From contig CACWNQ010000020.1 in assembly GCA_902762385.1 (NCBI GenBank), positions 1 to 46,975 on the forward strand: DNA of 46,975 nucleotides. The letters are read 5' to 3'. Of this stretch, positions 31,390 through 38,272 are shown piece by piece. Every line of letters begins with the position of its first letter. Position 1 is the first letter of the stretch. A model generated the notes under the pieces. The model ran no database searches. It was not told where the DNA came from and saw only the letters and a list, made by a program, of their open reading frames with translations. The DNA is from an uncultured Bacteroidales bacterium. Its GTDB lineage: Bacteria > Bacteroidota > Bacteroidia > Bacteroidales > Muribaculaceae. Position numbers and translations under genes: made by a program.

Positions 31390-32331
31390 ATGGAAATAAA
31401 AGCAGTAAAATTCCGCAAAAACGGATTCTATGGACAGCCATTTGCCTTTGGTGGCGAGGAAGGGCTGGATAAATTCGATAAAAACATTCGCTATCGTGGC
31501 AGCTTGCAGAACTACTTAATTGATACTGGCGACGAGGTGATTTTGGTAGATACTGGTCTTCCTGCAGGAACACCCGAGGAGGTGCCCGATGAGAACTCGC
31601 CAGCCTACACCGGTGAGGACATCTGTACCTACATGGAAGCCTTCGCGGCTCTGGGTTACAAGCCTGAGCAAGTGACTAAAATATTGCTCACTCATCGCCA
31701 CAGCGACCACTCGGGCGAGTTGCGCTCGTTCCCCAATGCCAAGATTTATGTGAATGAGGATGAACTTGCTGCCGAAGAATTACAAGGCCTCGACAACATC
31801 GTGCCTGTGAGCTTCACCGATGGGGCCTACTACAACTTCCCTGAGTGCCAGAAAATTCAAGAAGGCATTTTTTACATCAAGGCTAAGGGCCACACCCGCG
31901 GCAACAGCATCATCATCGTTGAGATGGACGGCTTGTTCTACATGATTCACGGCGACATTACTTACGTTGACGAGGCTCTTTATGAGAACAAACTCTCGGT
32001 AGTCTACGACGACCTTGAGGCAGCCCGTGAAACCCTCGACCGCGTGCGCGAGTTTGTTCGTAATCATCCCACTGTTTACATCTCAACTCACTCGCCACAA
32101 GGCTATGAGAACCTTGAGGCAAAGCGTGTTATGGACCTCGACAACCCTGTAGAGACCATCTTTGATGAGATTGACTTCACCAAGAAAGAAGCCTCGGGCA
32201 AATATGTGTGCTCAATCTGCGGCTACGTCTACGACCCCGCCGAGCACGACGGCGTTGCCTTCGAAGACCTCCCCGACGACTGGCGCTGCCCCCGCTGCAA
32301 GCAAGCCAAGGACAAGTTCAACAAAGCATAA
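31390..32331 (+). CDS. Metallo-beta-lactamase-fold hydrolase fused to rubredoxin
   Basis: A 313-residue two-domain protein. Residues about 1-260 form an MBL fold with the metal motif L-T-H-R-H-S-D-H near 97-104, a third-ligand region K-G-H-T-R-G-N near 163, and M-I-H-G-D-I near 180. The C-terminal 50 residues are rubredoxin: C-S-I-C-G-Y near 274-279 and W-R-C-P-R-C-K near 300-306. The classical flavodiiron protein has a flavodoxin between these; it is missing here and may be supplied by the neighbouring flavoprotein. It is third in the redox operon. A role in O2 or peroxide reduction is inference. Confidence 0.85.
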
Positions 32332-32356
32332 GCCTGCATAGCCGTTCTATATTAAA

Positions 32357-32396
32357 AATGCCATTGAGGTTACCTTACCTCGATGGCATTGATTTT
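32357..32396 (+). terminator. Terminator of the redox operon
   Basis: A 14-bp stem with one G-T pair (32357-32370 with 32377-32390), six-base loop, then GATTTT. Confidence 0.8.
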
Positions 32397-32478
32397 AGCT
32401 TGATAGGTCTTTATCCGTTTTTTAAGTCTTTATCAAGAAAAAAACTCAAAAAATATTTTCCGATTGGAAAAAATAGTT

Positions 32479-32486
32479 TACCTTTG
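32479..32486 (+). promoter_or_regulatory. -7 box upstream of the long-hairpin RNA
   Basis: TACCTTTG is a perfect TAnnTTTG and predicts a start near 32493. The -33 region has only TTTTC at the ideal distance, so the promoter is probable rather than certain. Confidence 0.5.
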
Positions 32487-32492
32487 CATTTG

Positions 32493-32700
32493 GTTTAGTG
32501 GCAATAGTCACTAACGACATTGTCGGAAAAAAGCGTTATGCTCATTTTGTAAATCGAGAACCTAGGAAATTTTCGAACTTACTACAAGAGATGGCATAGC
32601 GGCTCTACGCTCATAGCGTGGTGCTTGCTGTATCACATCTGTAGTATAGGTACTCCTAGGACCTTCGATTTAGTGTGGTATAGTAGTTCCACGCTTTTTT
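32493..32700 (+). ncRNA. Structured RNA, 6S-like long hairpin
   Basis: An imperfect hairpin spans 32527-32700. From the base: AAAAAAGCGT/ACGCTTTTTT (32527-32536 with 32691-32700), AAATCGA/TCGATTT (32551-32557 with 32665-32671), CCTAGGA/TCCTAGG (32561-32567 with 32654-32660), ACTACA/TGTAGT (32581-32586 with 32640-32645), GATG/CATC, then a terminal hairpin ACGCT-CAT-AGCGT (32607-32619). An unpaired bubble (32568-32580 opposite 32646-32653) sits mid-helix. It ends in six T and no frame is open. A single near-200-nt helix with a central bubble is the architecture of 6S RNA, which binds RNA polymerase; Bacteroidales 6S is a good candidate. The 5' end is inferred. Alternatively it is an island-specific RNA. 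Confidence 0.55.
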
Positions 32701-32738
32701 AATTTGTAATTGGGTTTGGAGCTACCCTATATTATATT

Positions 32739-33071
32739 GTGATGGGCGAGAGAATAAAATTCCCGATTTTTGAAATAGATGGAAACACATTTCAGGTAAA
32801 AGTTTCTACTGAAATATACTCTGTAGAAGCCATAAACGCTTCTTGCTATAAATTCTCAGGTGACTTCTACATCCACCAGGAACAAAACAAGCAAGAAAGT
32901 ATTGTTATTGTAACCTTGCAGTCTAAGGATGATAAAGCTATTAATGAAACAGTCTGCAAAGAGTTTTGTAACGATTTGATTGACCAACAACTTCGTGTTA
33001 CTACAAACGACCGCTTCGGCCATATCCGCGATTTAATTGTAGAAGAAGCATTTAAGCCTGTAAACAAATGA
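32739..33071 (+). CDS. hxsD: His-Xaa-Ser system protein HxsD
   Basis: A 110-residue soluble protein. It fits HxsD, the small partner of the HXS radical SAM pair. A mixed alpha/beta N-terminal part (F-E-I-D-G-N-T-F-Q-V-K-V) leads to the helical C-terminus, L-I-D-Q-Q-L-R-V near 80-87 and I-R-D-L-I-V-E-E-A-F near 97-106, the most family-like part. A second ATG one codon in could be used. Its TGA overlaps the next ATG (ATGA, 33068-33071). The protein may present the substrate leader to the maturases, like other RiPP recognition partners; that is inference. Confidence 0.75.
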   Translation: MMGERIKFPIFEIDGNTFQVKVSTEIYSVEAINASCYKFSGDFYIHQEQNKQESIVIVTLQSKDDKAINETVCKEFCNDLIDQQLRVTTNDRFGHIRDLIVEEAFKPVNK

Positions 33072-33565
33072 AAAAAACAATAATATTTCTTGCTATGTTG
33101 GCTTGTGTATCAGTAGCATCTGGTCAAGGCTATTTTTGTAACGAGAAGTCGTTAAAACTTTCAGTTTCAAAAGTTAAAAGAATATGTCGTATTATCAATC
33201 AGAACTATGAAAAGAATGGAAATGTATCTGACTTGCAGATAACAATTTCATTTTTAGAATCTTTTCATGAGTTTTTAGATAGCGGACCTTACCAAGACCG
33301 AGGTACAGTTCGAGTCGATAAAAAAGGTTATAAAATATCTTACAAAAGCGTTCAACATAGGGATGGGTATTGTCATTTTCACAAACAAAATGATGATTGC
33401 TGCTCGTCTAAAGATGAAACTGAAATCTTTATCCCATATGATTTATCGAAATGCTACCATTACCATATGATGTATTGGGGGGTTCCTACTAGTGTTGGTG
33501 GTTCTGCAATTATTAAATCCATAGAGCCTTGGCATAAAGAACTTATTAAAGCAATAAAAAGATGA
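33068..33565 (+). CDS. Unknown exported protein inside the HXS operon
   Basis: A 165-residue protein with a signal peptide (MKKTIIFLAMLACVSVASGQ). The mature part has several Cys (G-Y-F-C, R-I-C-R, Y-C-H-F-H, D-D-C-C-S-S) and a His/Tyr cluster (C-Y-H-Y-H-M-M-Y-W-G-V-P) near 143-155, hinting at disulfides or metal binding. It is coupled on both sides by ATGA overlaps (33068-33071 with hxsD, 33562-33565 with hxsB), so it is an integral operon member. I do not recognise the family. It could be a periplasmic partner or handler of the modified HxS proteins; it has no HxS tail itself. Confidence 0.7.
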   Translation: MKKTIIFLAMLACVSVASGQGYFCNEKSLKLSVSKVKRICRIINQNYEKNGNVSDLQITISFLESFHEFLDSGPYQDRGTVRVDKKGYKISYKSVQHRDGYCHFHKQNDDCCSSKDETEIFIPYDLSKCYHYHMMYWGVPTSVGGSAIIKSIEPWHKELIKAIKR

Positions 33566-34989
33566 ACCATCATTATACTATACTGCCATTTCGGTTTTCT
33601 CTTTTCAACGATAACGAATATTTGCTTACAAATGATGTAGGTGAATACATTTTCCTTAGTGCTGAAGATTTCAAAAGCTTTATTAACTATAATCTTGATA
33701 TACAGTCGCAGATTTTCCAAGATATTGCATCTAAGCAAATTGCAACGACTGATAAGGTTGAAGATGTCGTGAATATGCTTGCCACCAAGTTTCGAACTAA
33801 GAAAAGTATTCTTAGAGACTTCACGACACTGCACATGGTTGTGCCCACATTGCGCTGCAATTCAAGCTGCATTTATTGCCAAGTCGCTCGTAAGAACATG
33901 GATGACCGCACGTCTGACATGACAAAAGAGACGGCAAAAAAAATCATTAAAACCATCTTTCAATCACCTTCGCCATGCATTAAGATTGAATTCCAAGGAG
34001 GCGACCCTTCAACCTATTTCGAAATGGTTGAATATATGATTGAGGAAGCAGAGTTACAAAACCTGTTCAAGAAGAAAGAACTTGAATTTGTAATTTGCAC
34101 TAATATAACGCTTTTAGACGAGAGTAAAATCAAGTATCTTAAAAAGCATAATTGTTTTATTTCTACCTCTCTCGATGGTCCAAAAGCTATCCATAATGCG
34201 AACCGGCCTCTACAAACCACAGCCGAGACCTTCGAAATCTTTGAAGAAAAGCTAAAATTAGTTCGTGAAGTTTGGGGAGACAATAATTGCGTTTCTGCGC
34301 TCATGACAACATCGAAATTTGCCTTATGGCATTTCAAGGAAATTGTTGACGAATATGTGCGATTAGGTTTTAATAGTATCTTCTTGCGCTCGCTTAACCC
34401 TTATGGCTTTGCAAAACAATATAAAGATAAGATAGCATACCCGATTGAGGATTTCATAGAAAATTATAAGATTGGTCTTGATTATATTATAGATCTCAAT
34501 AAAAAAGGGACATTTTTTATTGAGGGTTTTGCTGCATTGCTCTTGAGAAGAATGCTAACGCCTTTTGCAACCGGCTTTGTCGATTTACAATCTCCAGCAG
34601 GTGTTGGTATTGCCGGGGCAATATACGACTATGATGGTAACGTATATGTTTCAGATGAGGGAAGAATGATGGCAAGATTTAAGCGCTATGATTTCAAACT
34701 TGGAAACGTGAACGAAAACACTTATCAAGAAATATTTAATGGCGAGCACCTTCACAATATCATAAGCAATGCATGCAACGAATGCCTTCCAGGGTGTGCC
34801 ACTTGCGTTTTCCAGCCTTATTGTGGAGCAGACCCTGTCCGCAATATGTCTGAACAAAACGATATGGTAGGCTTCAGACCAACAAACGAGATGTGTAAGA
34901 AGACCAAAGCCATTATAAGATATTTATTTGAACTTATTAAGCAAAATGACCCTGAAACAATTAACGTTTTTTGGTCATGGATTAGATGA
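33562..34989 (+). CDS. hxsB: His-Xaa-Ser system radical SAM maturase HxsB
   Basis: A 475-residue radical SAM peptide maturase. An N-terminal region of about 90 residues precedes the cluster motif C-N-S-S-C-I-Y-C (Cys 99, 103, 106). G-G-D-P-S near 148 is the SAM-binding glycine motif, and T-N-I-T-L and S-T-S-L-D-G-P near 190-210 continue the barrel. A C-terminal Cys-rich SPASM-like region (C-N-E-C-L-P-G-C-A-T-C-V-F-Q-P-Y-C near 417-433) should hold auxiliary Fe-S clusters, typical of enzymes that modify peptides. Predicted cytoplasmic. Probable substrates are the HxS tails encoded in this operon. Confidence 0.85.
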   Translation: MNHHYTILPFRFSLFNDNEYLLTNDVGEYIFLSAEDFKSFINYNLDIQSQIFQDIASKQIATTDKVEDVVNMLATKFRTKKSILRDFTTLHMVVPTLRCNSSCIYCQVARKNMDDRTSDMTKETAKKIIKTIFQSPSPCIKIEFQGGDPSTYFEMVEYMIEEAELQNLFKKKELEFVICTNITLLDESKIKYLKKHNCFISTSLDGPKAIHNANRPLQTTAETFEIFEEKLKLVREVWGDNNCVSALMTTSKFALWHFKEIVDEYVRLGFNSIFLRSLNPYGFAKQYKDKIAYPIEDFIENYKIGLDYIIDLNKKGTFFIEGFAALLLRRMLTPFATGFVDLQSPAGVGIAGAIYDYDGNVYVSDEGRMMARFKRYDFKLGNVNENTYQEIFNGEHLHNIISNACNECLPGCATCVFQPYCGADPVRNMSEQNDMVGFRPTNEMCKKTKAIIRYLFELIKQNDPETINVFWSWIR

Positions 34990-34993
34990 TGAT

Positions 34994-35467
34994 ATGAAAC
35001 GAATATTAATATCAGTAGCAGCATTTTTAATATCTATTTTTGCATTCTGTCAAGATAGATATATGAACGCTTATGCAAAATTTTCTGGTAAAGTTAATAA
35101 GGACGTTGTAGGTAAACTTGATATTAACAAGCGCGGTCGACTTGTCCTCTATCTTGGAAGCAAATCCATTGAAGTCTATCCTGAAGAATGGACAGTCAGC
35201 TCTGACTTATACATTATTATTGGAAACGAAAAGTTTAAGATTAGCAGAAAACAACGCGATTCCTATGGTTCGTATCTCCTTATTAACAAAGAGGGCGAAA
35301 AATATTATGTAACATTTAGAGGAGGTGATTTTATTAGAATCAACGCCAACGCTTCGGAAAAGGCAAACGAATACTTCTTAAAATATTCTTCTCCTAGCCA
35401 TGCTGCTCACACCTCTCATTTTTCGGGACATAATTCACATGTTTCACATTATTCGGCTAATAAATAA
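34994..35467 (+). CDS. Second His-Xaa-Ser tailed exported protein (candidate HXS substrate)
   Basis: A 157-residue protein. The start at 34994 (MKRILISVAAFLISIFAFCQ) gives a signal peptide; an earlier in-frame ATG lies inside hxsB. The folded part (about 22-130) is a small beta-rich domain. The last 22 residues read as H-x-S units: HAA, HTS, HFS, G, HNS, HVS, HYS, then A-N-K (His at 136, 139, 142, 146, 149, 152). Its position between the two radical SAM genes and the matching H-Y-S last unit in HxsA support it as a second substrate. No substrate of this size and layout is part of the basic HxsABCD definition as I know it. Confidence 0.75.
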   Translation: MKRILISVAAFLISIFAFCQDRYMNAYAKFSGKVNKDVVGKLDINKRGRLVLYLGSKSIEVYPEEWTVSSDLYIIIGNEKFKISRKQRDSYGSYLLINKEGEKYYVTFRGGDFIRINANASEKANEYFLKYSSPSHAAHTSHFSGHNSHVSHYSANK

Positions 35468-35469
35468 TT

Positions 35470-36591
35470 ATGAAACAAATTTATGGCAAACAAAATAACA
35501 TCACTGACTATGTTTTAGGTCGAATATCGACACAAAATAGGTTCTTTCTGAATCGCCAAGATTGTATTCTTGTTGATGAAAATGCCTCCTGTTGTCCGCG
35601 TGGCTATATTGCAACCATAACCACTAAAACAGAAACTAAAGGTTCGCGTCCAATAGTTACAGTTGAATCTGTTTCTGATTTTGTCGAGGGTGACGTTGTG
35701 CTTATAAATAAAAAAGGCGAAGTTATTTTTCTTTTTGAAATTCGTTCAATACATAACGCTATATTTGCAACGGAACGGTGCAACCATAGATGCATCATGT
35801 GCCCTCAACCACCAGTCGTAGATGAAATTGATAAAACACCTTTTAATCTTAAGCTGATTTCTTTAATTGATAAAAACGCTTGTGAAATTGGAATTACTGG
35901 AGGCGAACCAACACTTATAGGCGACAAACTTTTTGATTTAATAAAACAAATCCAAAAATATCAACCTAAAGCAGCAATTAGCTTACTCTCAAATGGTGTA
36001 AAATTTGCTGATAAAAGCTATGCAATGAAACTTGCCCTCTGCAAGCATCATGACTTACAAGTTGATGTTCCTATATTCTCTGACATAGCAGATGAGCATA
36101 ACCGTATAGTGGGTGCAAAAACTTTCTATAAAACGGTTCAAGGCCTTTATAATCTTGCACTTTTCAGACAAAAGATTGGTATTCGTATAGTTGTTCACCG
36201 TCAAACTTATAAAAGACTTCCTCAATTTGCTGATTATATATATCACAACTTCCCTTTTGTGAGTCAAGTTGCTTTCTTGCAAATGGAAACGACTGGTAAC
36301 GCTAGCGATAACATTAATGAAATTTGGATTGACCCGTTTGATTACAATGAGCAGCTCCAAGAGGCCGTTAATATATTAGACCAAAGAGGTATCAGAACCT
36401 ATATCTATAATGCTCAACTTTGTGTCTTGCCTGAATCTTTGTGGCCTTTTGCTCAAAATGCAATTTCAGATTGGAAAGATACATATTTACCATTATGTAA
36501 TGATTGCAAACTAAAAGAAAGATGTGGCGGACTTTTTGAGTCAAATCAGACTCATCACAGTTCTCACATTAGACCATATAGAGAGAATTAA
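35470..36591 (+). CDS. hxsC: His-Xaa-Ser system radical SAM maturase HxsC
   Basis: A 373-residue second radical SAM enzyme. It has an unusual N-terminal beta domain of about 90 residues, then the cluster motif C-N-H-R-C-I-M-C-P-Q-P-P (Cys 104, 108, 111). The following G-I-T-G-G-E-P-T near 140-147 is the SAM motif. The C-terminal C-N-D-C-K-L-K-E-R-C-G-G near 345-356 may bind another cluster. The last residues read T-H-H-S-S-H-I-R-P-Y, a short His-Ser stretch reminiscent of the substrates. Two nt separate it from the previous gene. The chemistry is unknown; HxsB and HxsC probably act in sequence or on the same peptide. Confidence 0.85.
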   Translation: MKQIYGKQNNITDYVLGRISTQNRFFLNRQDCILVDENASCCPRGYIATITTKTETKGSRPIVTVESVSDFVEGDVVLINKKGEVIFLFEIRSIHNAIFATERCNHRCIMCPQPPVVDEIDKTPFNLKLISLIDKNACEIGITGGEPTLIGDKLFDLIKQIQKYQPKAAISLLSNGVKFADKSYAMKLALCKHHDLQVDVPIFSDIADEHNRIVGAKTFYKTVQGLYNLALFRQKIGIRIVVHRQTYKRLPQFADYIYHNFPFVSQVAFLQMETTGNASDNINEIWIDPFDYNEQLQEAVNILDQRGIRTYIYNAQLCVLPESLWPFAQNAISDWKDTYLPLCNDCKLKERCGGLFESNQTHHSSHIRPYREN

Positions 36592-36620
36592 TTTATTGTT
36601 TAACAATTAAATGCAGTAGA

Positions 36621-36893
36621 ATGAAAAAATTAGCATTTGTATTAATCTCATTTGTTATGGGATGTGCTGGTTTTGTTTCATCAGCTGGGAACAACATTGC
36701 GACAAGATTTGTTCGCACTTCTAGTGAAGAACAGATTGCTTCGCAAAATGACCAGCCGTTGATACTGGAACTACCTACTATTGGGCAGACATCTGCGACG
36801 TGGCATAGTTCACACTCGTCACATAGCTCGCACTCGTCACACAGCTCACATAGTTCGCACAGTTCTCATAGCTCTCACTATTCAGGTTTCTAA
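36621..36893 (+). CDS. hxsA: His-Xaa-Ser repeat protein HxsA (predicted precursor)
   Basis: A 90-residue precursor. An N-terminal signal-like hydrophobic segment (M-K-K-L-A-F-V-L-I-S-F-V-M-G-C-A-G) could be lipidated at Cys 15 or cut after S-S-A. A linker of about 35 residues follows. The tail is eight tandem H-S-S units and one H-Y-S, ending G-F (His at 62, 65, 68, 71, 74, 77, 80, 83, 86). The repeated codons vary (His CAT/CAC, Ser AGT/AGC/TCA/TCG/TCT), so the protein pattern is under selection rather than fresh slippage. It is the target expected for HxsB/HxsC; modification would precede export. A terminator follows. Confidence 0.85.
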   Translation: MKKLAFVLISFVMGCAGFVSSAGNNIATRFVRTSSEEQIASQNDQPLILELPTIGQTSATWHSSHSSHSSHSSHSSHSSHSSHSSHYSGF

Positions 36894-37173
36894 TGTAATT
36901 TTTGAACTTGAAAAAGGTCGGACCTCAGTAATCCTATGGGTTGCTGAGGTTTTTCTTTTAAAACCAACATTCTGTGGTGGCTCTCTCATTGGTAAGGATT
37001 GAGACGGATTACATCATTCAATCCTTGCTTAGTTTTGGCTTCGCCCACCATTGGGCTACTGTTTGGCATAGAAATCAGATGAGTTTGGTTCTGTCCTCTC
37101 TTCTTACCATGCACTAATTGTGGTTTGCTTTGATGTGGGTATAGAATTTATATTTAAATGATTAAAAGATGTT
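36894..37173. other. Intergenic tail of the HXS operon
   Basis: No gene in these 280 bases. It contains the HXS terminator (36922-36959) and a weak inverted repeat, GGATTGA/TCAATCC, near 36997-37024 without a T tail. The rest shows no open frame or RNA that I can support. Confidence 0.5.
36922..36959 (+). terminator. Terminator of the HXS operon
   Basis: A stem of about 12 bp (CCTCAGTAATCC with GGGTTGCTGAGG, two G-T pairs) with a three-base loop, followed by TTTTTCTTTT. Confidence 0.85.
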
Positions 37174-38272
37174 TTAGTCAAAGAATTGCTGGCGGTTTAT
37201 CCAGAGCTTGAAGAAGGAGTCGTTGATTGTCACGGTTTGCCCTTCAATGTCGATTATGTCTTTCTTAAGCAGGGCTTTCTTTATAGCATTCACGTTTGCC
37301 GATGATTCGAGCCTGTATCTCTTGATGACTTCCTTGCTGCTGTGACCAGTAGTAATACCGCTGGCAACAGCCCTGAGAAAATTCATTTGCAATTCAGAGA
37401 GCTGTTCTACTTCTCGTTGAAAGAAAATCCTATTCTTTGGTGACAACTTTCCCTGATTTGTACCAAATAATCCATGCTAAATGTTGGACGTATGAGGAAA
37501 GATTGTCGGTTGTCTGACAAATCTTAGTCGCTTGTTCCGTGGTGATTACCTTTCCTGTTTCCTTGAACTTGTCGCAAATGAAAGGTACCCATTCGCTTGT
37601 GGGGATTTTCTTCAAGAACATCATGTCGCCAAATTTGAAGAATGGCATACTCTTGTCATTGAAGAACTGCTCCATCAGGTGTTTCTTACTGCCAAACATA
37701 CAATAAGTTACATGCTGCTGATGTTGCCATGCGGAGCGCAATTTTTTTTGAAACTTTATTGAGTCAGGGAAGTCACCAATCTGCTGGAACTCGTCTAAAC
37801 ATATAACGAGCCTGATGTTCTTCTTTTGTGCGATTTTTTCAGGTAATTGCAGTATGTCTAAATCGGAGTCATCTTTTGGATTCCAGTCAAATGACATTGA
37901 GAAATCGCTCATGGGGTCGGGGCCAAAAGAGAATTTGGGTGACACCCGTGAAAGAAAAGTCTTCGCCATCTCGGCCCATTCTTCAAGCTTTGATGAGGTC
38001 TGTTTTATGATTGTTGAAGCAAAGGCATGATAGAATTCATTCTCCGACTTGCATTGAAAAATATCGATGTAGATAGGTTTTATTCTGGGATTGCTAATTT
38101 CAGAAATCACTTTCTTGACGAGTGAAGTCTTTCCCCATCGACGAGGGGAAATCAAAATGGTATTGATACCGTGAGTTAGGTTGGCATTCAGACGTCTCGC
38201 ATCTTCTTGCCTGTCGGTGAAATACTCTCCCTCCGCGGCTTTTCCAAAAACAAAAGGATTAATCTCGTTCAT
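37174..38272 (-). pseudogene. AAA family ATPase, frameshifted
   Basis: Two overlapping frames together make one ATPase of the family with an N-terminal P-loop and a C-terminal winged-helix domain. The upstream frame (38272 to 37430) has Walker A, S-P-R-R-W-G-K-T-S, near residue 42 and Walker B, L-V-I-C-L-D-E-F, near 158, and ends ...G-K-V-V-T-K-E-stop. The downstream frame (37446 to 37174) resumes N-R-I-F-F-Q-R-E-V-E-Q-L-S, the normal family continuation, but its only start is a TTG. Relatives have some 12-15 more residues between these points, so a small deletion with frameshift is likely. The ATPase core may still be made. Confidence 0.75.

Follow-up and report, generated by a model that had tools for sequence, protein, structure and literature searches.

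His-Xaa-Ser (HXS) systems, represented by the families TIGR03976-TIGR03979, NF038296, NF038309 and NF038313, combine tandem H-x-S proteins with HxsB and HxsC, which have been called putative maturases after Haft and Basu (PMC9062424); four hxs genes are also listed in a Pseudomonas genome (PMC8446631). No HXS product was found in a literature search that left subscription journals and most preprints outside its scope, and a published product may exist. Two groups of radical S-adenosylmethionine (SAM) enzymes offer points of comparison. The triceptide or three-residue cyclophane enzymes (XncB, OscB, MscB, HaaB, YhhB) are SPASM radical SAM proteins that act on an aromatic residue at position i and a partner at i+2, and the crosslinks described include Phe C4-Ser Cβ (MscB), His C2-Ala Cβ (HaaB, ScaB) and His C2-Arg Cβ (YhhB), so that His and Ser are each used by known members (PMC11002830). 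The anaerobic sulfatase-maturating enzyme (anSME) abstracts a hydrogen from Cβ (PMC5682303).

Here we describe a 46,975-nucleotide stretch of DNA (the window) from an uncultured gut Bacteroidales bacterium of the Muribaculaceae (assembly GCA_902762385.1, contig CACWNQ010000020.1), in which positions 32739-36893 hold six open reading frames (ORFs), all on the + strand. They form what is almost beyond doubt a genuine HXS operon. Judged from its sequences, it belongs to a system already known from sequence and carries one unusual presumed precursor and one tail-less orphan passenger. Probably both of its H-x-S tails are modified, and the chemical reading that we favour, with a probability of roughly 0.4, is a crosslink from each His to the Ser two residues further on. 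This reading is supported by family scores above cut-off, the core order D-B-C-A, a codon contrast at the third Ser, and an x residue that varies while His and Ser are kept.

Gene content and the two H-x-S tails

The original prediction, made from the letters of the sequence, described six same-strand genes joined by short junctions, and both the ATGA overlaps (33068-33071 and 33562-33565) and the gaps of 4 nt (34990-34993), 2 nt (35468-35469) and, before hxsA, 29 nt (36592-36620) are borne out. The features are the following:

32739..33071, + strand: hxsD, small partner protein of 110 aa; GTG start, with an ATG next at 32742; TIGR03976
33068..33565, + strand: orphan in the D/B slot, exported-looking, Cys/His-rich, 165 aa, without an H-x-S tail; no family above cut-off
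33562..34989, + strand: hxsB, radical SAM/SPASM maturase, 475 aa; TIGR03978; seven invariant Cys
34994..35467, + strand: B/C-slot protein, presumed to be the second substrate, 157 aa from the ATG at 34994; hydrophobic N-terminal segment, domain of about 110 aa, five-unit H-x-S tail
35470..36591, + strand: hxsC, radical SAM maturase with a four-cysteine tail, 373 aa; TIGR03977; seven invariant Cys
36621..36893, + strand: hxsA-type presumed substrate, 90 aa, with nine C-terminal H-x-S units; homologous to the HxsA2 of locus L027, itself below cut-off
36920..36952, + strand: terminator-like hairpin 3' of hxsA; five such hairpins found against 3.1 expected in shuffles, weak evidence on its own
32395..37034, no strand: segment without a counterpart at the syntenic site of the same-genus genome G040 (L122), from flank alignments and the L122 genes

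HxsD (84.2 bits, cut-off 50), HxsB (622.6, cut-off 370) and HxsC (367.1, cut-off 267.9) all exceed the curated NCBIfam cut-offs, so that the original prediction passes the HMM check that could have refuted it. Its two radical SAM proteins are confirmed too, the Pfam radical SAM domain being found in HxsB and HxsC and SPASM in HxsB. The protein at 36621-36893 passes none of the four HxsA models at its cut-off, its best score being 33.9 of 55 with HxsA4. Since it has a homologue in the L027 protein (phmmer E 8.7e-16), and that protein scores 60.7 with HxsA2 (cut-off 48), we read the missed cut-off as a divergence problem of short low-complexity models. The claim that the operon is complete therefore stands by models for D, B and C and by homology and repeats for HxsA, no HxsA model having been passed. 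As in other HXS systems, a tandem H-x-S protein lies directly 3' of hxsC; the window differs by one further gene at each of the D/B and B/C junctions and by a second tail protein that matches no HxsA model.

H-x-S units were likewise confirmed at the ends of two exported-looking proteins, export of both and of the orphan being judged by eye from the N-termini. The second tail protein, at 34994-35467, has no NCBIfam or Pfam match above cut-off. In its five units x is T, F, N, V and Y, with His and Ser constant. Its fold, predicted without an alignment, is poor (predicted local distance difference test score, pLDDT, 45.7). A precedent for an H-x-S block on a folded domain is the HxsA-like protein of Adhaeribacter, annotated as peptidoglycan-binding, for which a TIGR03979 match of 65.8 bits, below cut-off, covers most of the protein. 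The orphan at 33068-33565 likewise lacks an NCBIfam or Pfam family above cut-off, and has weak matches only (E 3e-4 to 8e-3) in 297 sampled genomes of the window's family.

Searched as DNA, the pattern S-H-x-S-H-Y-S occurs twice in the genome, both times inside the operon, and also in one of 12 HxsB-negative relatives, whereas the reversed control gave none in all 24 genomes. Because the genome's copies are confined to the operon and the control is zero, these tails are not chance matches. Two further candidates were rejected. The B/C-slot protein of L096 was considered as a domain homologue of the second tail protein, and its match (BLASTP E 5e-4, one-sequence search) is mostly tail. HxsC was considered as a substrate mimic or self-modified enzyme, since the window's protein has THHSSHIRPYREN at its end, a place where HSxHI is common among close relatives; distant HxsC proteins have FSNHI, YSENI, YSRAI or ARSRGI, and those of the L020-L024 type none, so that we do not read this ending as a trace of self-modification.

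Serine codons and the maturation enzymes

Serine is encoded by two codon sets, TCN and AGY, and a single base change from one towards the other leaves serine for another residue. We counted all H-x-S units in 31 distinct HxS proteins, taken as mechanical ORFs and including a few units outside the tails. Of 243 units, 216 have a TCN codon for the third-position Ser; of 140 serines at x, no more than 35 are TCN. For comparison we took 273 mechanical ORFs with a length of 250 aa or more, hxs genes included, from the window and 33 loci; in these, TCN accounts for 118/183 of Ser before His, 105/183 of Ser after His and 5,051/7,570 of all Ser. The third Ser differs from Ser before His (Fisher p = 2.6e-9) and Ser at x from Ser after His (p = 5.6e-9), although the shared ancestry of units and proteins makes both p-values too small. 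Protein by protein, leaving out two without Ser at x, the third Ser is richer in TCN than x in 26 of 29, poorer in one (L109) and equal in two. We read this contrast as the mark of long-standing selection keeping the third Ser while x drifts, and a kept third Ser with a free x is what one would expect if His reacts with that Ser. Biased duplication of units could produce part of the contrast.

In HxsB, C99, C103, C106, C412, C415, C421 and C445, as well as D365, E366 and R368, are invariant in 40/40 sequences. Its nearest solved relative is anSME (E 3.3e-13; 4k36, 4k37). The four tail cysteines C412, C415, C421 and C445 align with C317, C320, C326 and C348, ligands of auxiliary cluster II (Aux-II) in anSME, whereas no Cys stands at the Aux-I positions, C276 pairing with S364, C330 with P425, and nothing near C255 and C261 (ligand lists in PMC5682303 and PMC5715301). 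Of the eight Cys that hold the two auxiliary clusters of anSME, HxsB thus has the four of Aux-II. D365 aligns with anSME residue 277, which we take to be the proposed catalytic base.

In HxsC, C104, C108, C111, C318, C343, C346 and C352 are invariant in 39/39 sequences. The original prediction ascribed a Cys tail to one of the two enzymes, which is right for the SPASM tail of HxsB; such a tail is not special to it, given C318, C343, C346 and C352 in HxsC. As these four tail Cys are invariant, HxsC probably binds one auxiliary cluster as well. A sequence search of the PDB gave nothing for HxsC at E<=0.001. Related loci show some irregular enzyme ORFs: at L030 (3160-4818) the HxsC ORF is extended to 552 aa, and at L092 (3640-5054) HxsB is split over two ORFs (348 + 85 aa).

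HxsD is predicted to fold as beta-beta-alpha-beta-beta-alpha with a last helix of 35 residues (pLDDT 87.5, 20 sequences). A Foldseek search of the PDB with this model gave nothing at E<=0.001; RNA polymerase chains (Rpb11-like or fused) or similar weak matches fill 29 of the first 33 rows, and no PqqD appears among the 50 of 1180 matches listed. On this weak comparison, HxsD may differ from the winged-helix, PqqD-like recognition element that is usual for ribosomally synthesised and post-translationally modified peptides.

Proposed crosslink and rival explanations

In the mechanism that we propose, the SPASM protein HxsB and HxsC, with its one probable auxiliary cluster, would be aided by HxsD and would modify two C-terminal H-x-S tails in the cytoplasm, one on the short HxsA (36621-36893) and one on the orphan domain protein (34994-35467), and both tail proteins would be exported after modification. 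The β-hydrogen would be taken from the third-position Ser, and that carbon would be bonded to the His two residues upstream. The product would be a series of three-residue rings of the triceptide type, His C2 to Ser Cβ. Such rings are favoured because the H-x-S spacing matches the known i to i+2 crosslinks of radical SAM enzymes and because anSME abstracts a Cβ hydrogen. As in triceptides, the residues at i and i+2 are conserved with a free middle position, His and the third Ser being kept by the definition of the motif search. The original prediction that the tails are the modification targets is supported by the codon contrast and by the presence of HxS tails on otherwise different exported proteins within such operons; that modification precedes export is something we infer.

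Several points weigh against the crosslink. HxsB lies far below the cut-offs of the cyclophane families (AmcB 58.4/425, GrrM 55.7/310, YhhB 53.5/445, XyeB 41.8/450) and scores higher to PapB (96.6) and to anaerobic sulfatase maturases (87.8). The HXS operon also differs from triceptide systems in its long tandem units and in having two maturases and a third protein, and a crosslink leaves the need for two radical SAM enzymes unexplained. On the codon side, neither the repeat units nor the related proteins are independent of one another, the pattern is reversed in L109, and AGY third serines are many (5/8 in L109, 3/7 in L114, 7/12 in L112, 4/10 in L037, 3/10 in L092).

The likeness of HxsB to anSME raises another reading, in which the third Ser is converted by HxsB to formylglycine, whose aldehyde would then react, with the help of HxsC or spontaneously, for instance by condensation with His or by attachment to a surface partner. 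Being the best solved relative, with an invariant Asp aligned at position 277, and accepting Cys or Ser as substrate (PMC5682303), anSME lends this reading some weight. We nevertheless hold it to be unlikely, since all four Aux-I Cys are missing in HxsB, its score is below the anSME family cut-off (349.45), and a strict His at i-2 would need a separate reason; the presumed substrate of HxsB is moreover a repeated tail, not a sulfatase. Somewhat easier to entertain, but still rather improbable, is another single-residue change on His or Ser made by HxsB or HxsC (Cα epimerisation, thioether-free Cα chemistry or hydroxylation), merely multiplied by the repeats. Radical SAM maturases are chemically diverse, HxsC is weakly similar to several of them (for example 15.2 bits to the YydG epimerase), and two enzymes suggest two reactions; on its own, such a change gives no account of two residues kept at i and i+2 while x varies.

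A different kind of doubt concerns the number of substrates, as only the short HxsA might be modified, the tail at 34994-35467 being a look-alike such as a metal-binding His tail. The repeat there is shorter and irregular, with one H-A-A unit and one inserted Gly, and the protein has no strong homologue in the 297 family genomes (E 9e-4 and 7e-3 at best). Yet all five of its third serines are TCN, it terminates in SHYSA much as other tails among close relatives terminate in SHYS[SAG], and comparable genes occupy the B/C slot in L028 and L096, so that we consider a look-alike the least credible of these alternatives. The His-Ser crosslink on both tails remains the reading that we prefer.

Operon variants, genomic site and distribution

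We compared 42 fetched loci, in 41 of which the search used found HxsB or HxsC (L115 gave none). The hxsD-hxsB pair is carried by 22 distinct contigs of the window's order, L090 being a duplicate of L032, L017 omitted as a duplicate of L037, and L038, with a partial HxsB, standing outside the comparison. In 20 of these 22 contigs the genes at the D/B junction overlap or are separated by no more than 65 nt; the exceptions are L035, with two HxS-tailed proteins, and L037, with a membrane-like 71-aa ORF without H-x-S units. At the B/C junction, 18 of 20 contigs showing both genes have them overlapping or separated by 10 nt or less, L028 having an 82-aa HxS protein in between and L096 an exported-looking protein of 145 aa with three H-x-S units. 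HxsA lies 3' of HxsC in 18 of 19 contigs with enough room, L091 being the exception. The tails of the extra proteins and of the listed HxsA of D-B-C-A type end in SHYS[SAG] plus 0-4 residues. D-B-C-A is thus the core order common to the relatives, and the window is a core operon with added passenger genes at two recurrent junctions, D/B and B/C, the passenger-bearing form being a minority state.

Other arrangements were seen. In the 1.2-Mb genome G386, six short HxsA genes (70-76 aa), nearly identical to one another, are spread through repeat-rich DNA (L144-L148), and HxsA does not adjoin its hxsD-B-C operon (L091). Dispersed, diverse tail-tagged proteins in this genome were considered and rejected, as the 21 pattern matches at six sites are these six copies. 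A second HXS type (L020-L024 and L098-L101) has a shorter HxsC (291-297 aa), and its HxsD was not found by the search used; in L020 and L021 a nearby protein has a Pfam peptidoglycan-binding domain.

In 1-kb windows the operon has 35-37% GC, with flanks mostly at 45-52%, falling to some 42% around 29-30.5 kb and 37-38.5 kb. Of the 14 genome contigs found, 13 encode an HxsB with 76-79% identity along almost the entire protein, and in the 14th (L038) it is partial. These contigs are labelled Prevotella, Paraprevotella, Butyricimonas, Phocaeicola, Paludibacteraceae, Muribaculaceae and others, and are mostly metagenome bins, whose labels can be wrong. HxsB occurs in 9 of the 297 family genomes, this one included. 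The flanks of G040 align up to 32394, weakly from 37035 and strongly from 37175. At the same site G040 carries a type II methyltransferase and a restriction enzyme instead (L122 8418-10777), and its own hxs operon lies at another position. On these comparisons we regard the operon as horizontally acquired, and because a restriction-modification pair occupies the same site in a genome of the same genus, the site may be an exchange hotspot.

G135 was not retained as a clean empty site, its two flanks being on different contigs; only G040 shows both together. No reported repeat pair in 32250-37250 marks both ends of the exchanged segment, and no RNA family in 32200-37300 reached its gathering score. 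Adjoining the operon, an AAA-type ATPase (37174-38272, - strand) is spread over two overlapping ORFs in different frames (90 + 280 aa); its syntenic counterpart in L122 is one 378-aa ORF, and the DNA is 93.7% identical, against about 78-86% in nearby flanks. In a PADLOC scan of eight proteins chosen from 148 listed flanking proteins (three from L018, and one each from L028, L035, L093, L094 and L096), four match a family at E<=0.001, without a control set. We make no claim of a defence link, the restriction-modification pair of G040 being a single case and the scan lacking a control set.

HXS systems are widespread: an HxsC match at E<=1e-15 is found in 429 of 72,556 plasmid records and in 14 of 393 genomes sampled from the window's order. 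Among the 429 plasmids, 330 are from Klebsiella and 344 are typed conjugative.

As a speculative extension that we consider doubtful, the HxS block may be a transferable tag and HXS operons platforms with two passenger slots, which unrelated exported proteins would enter by gaining an H-x-S tail. The tails would then become rigid chains of His-Ser rings that anchor or display the passenger at the cell surface. With two presumed substrates that differ in their x residues and share one maturase pair, the operon is a compact test bed, and the codon argument singles out the third Ser as the residue of interest. To our knowledge, no peptide architecture of repeated His-Ser rings has been described; if the proposed crosslink is true, such a repeated ring chain would be a new peptide architecture.

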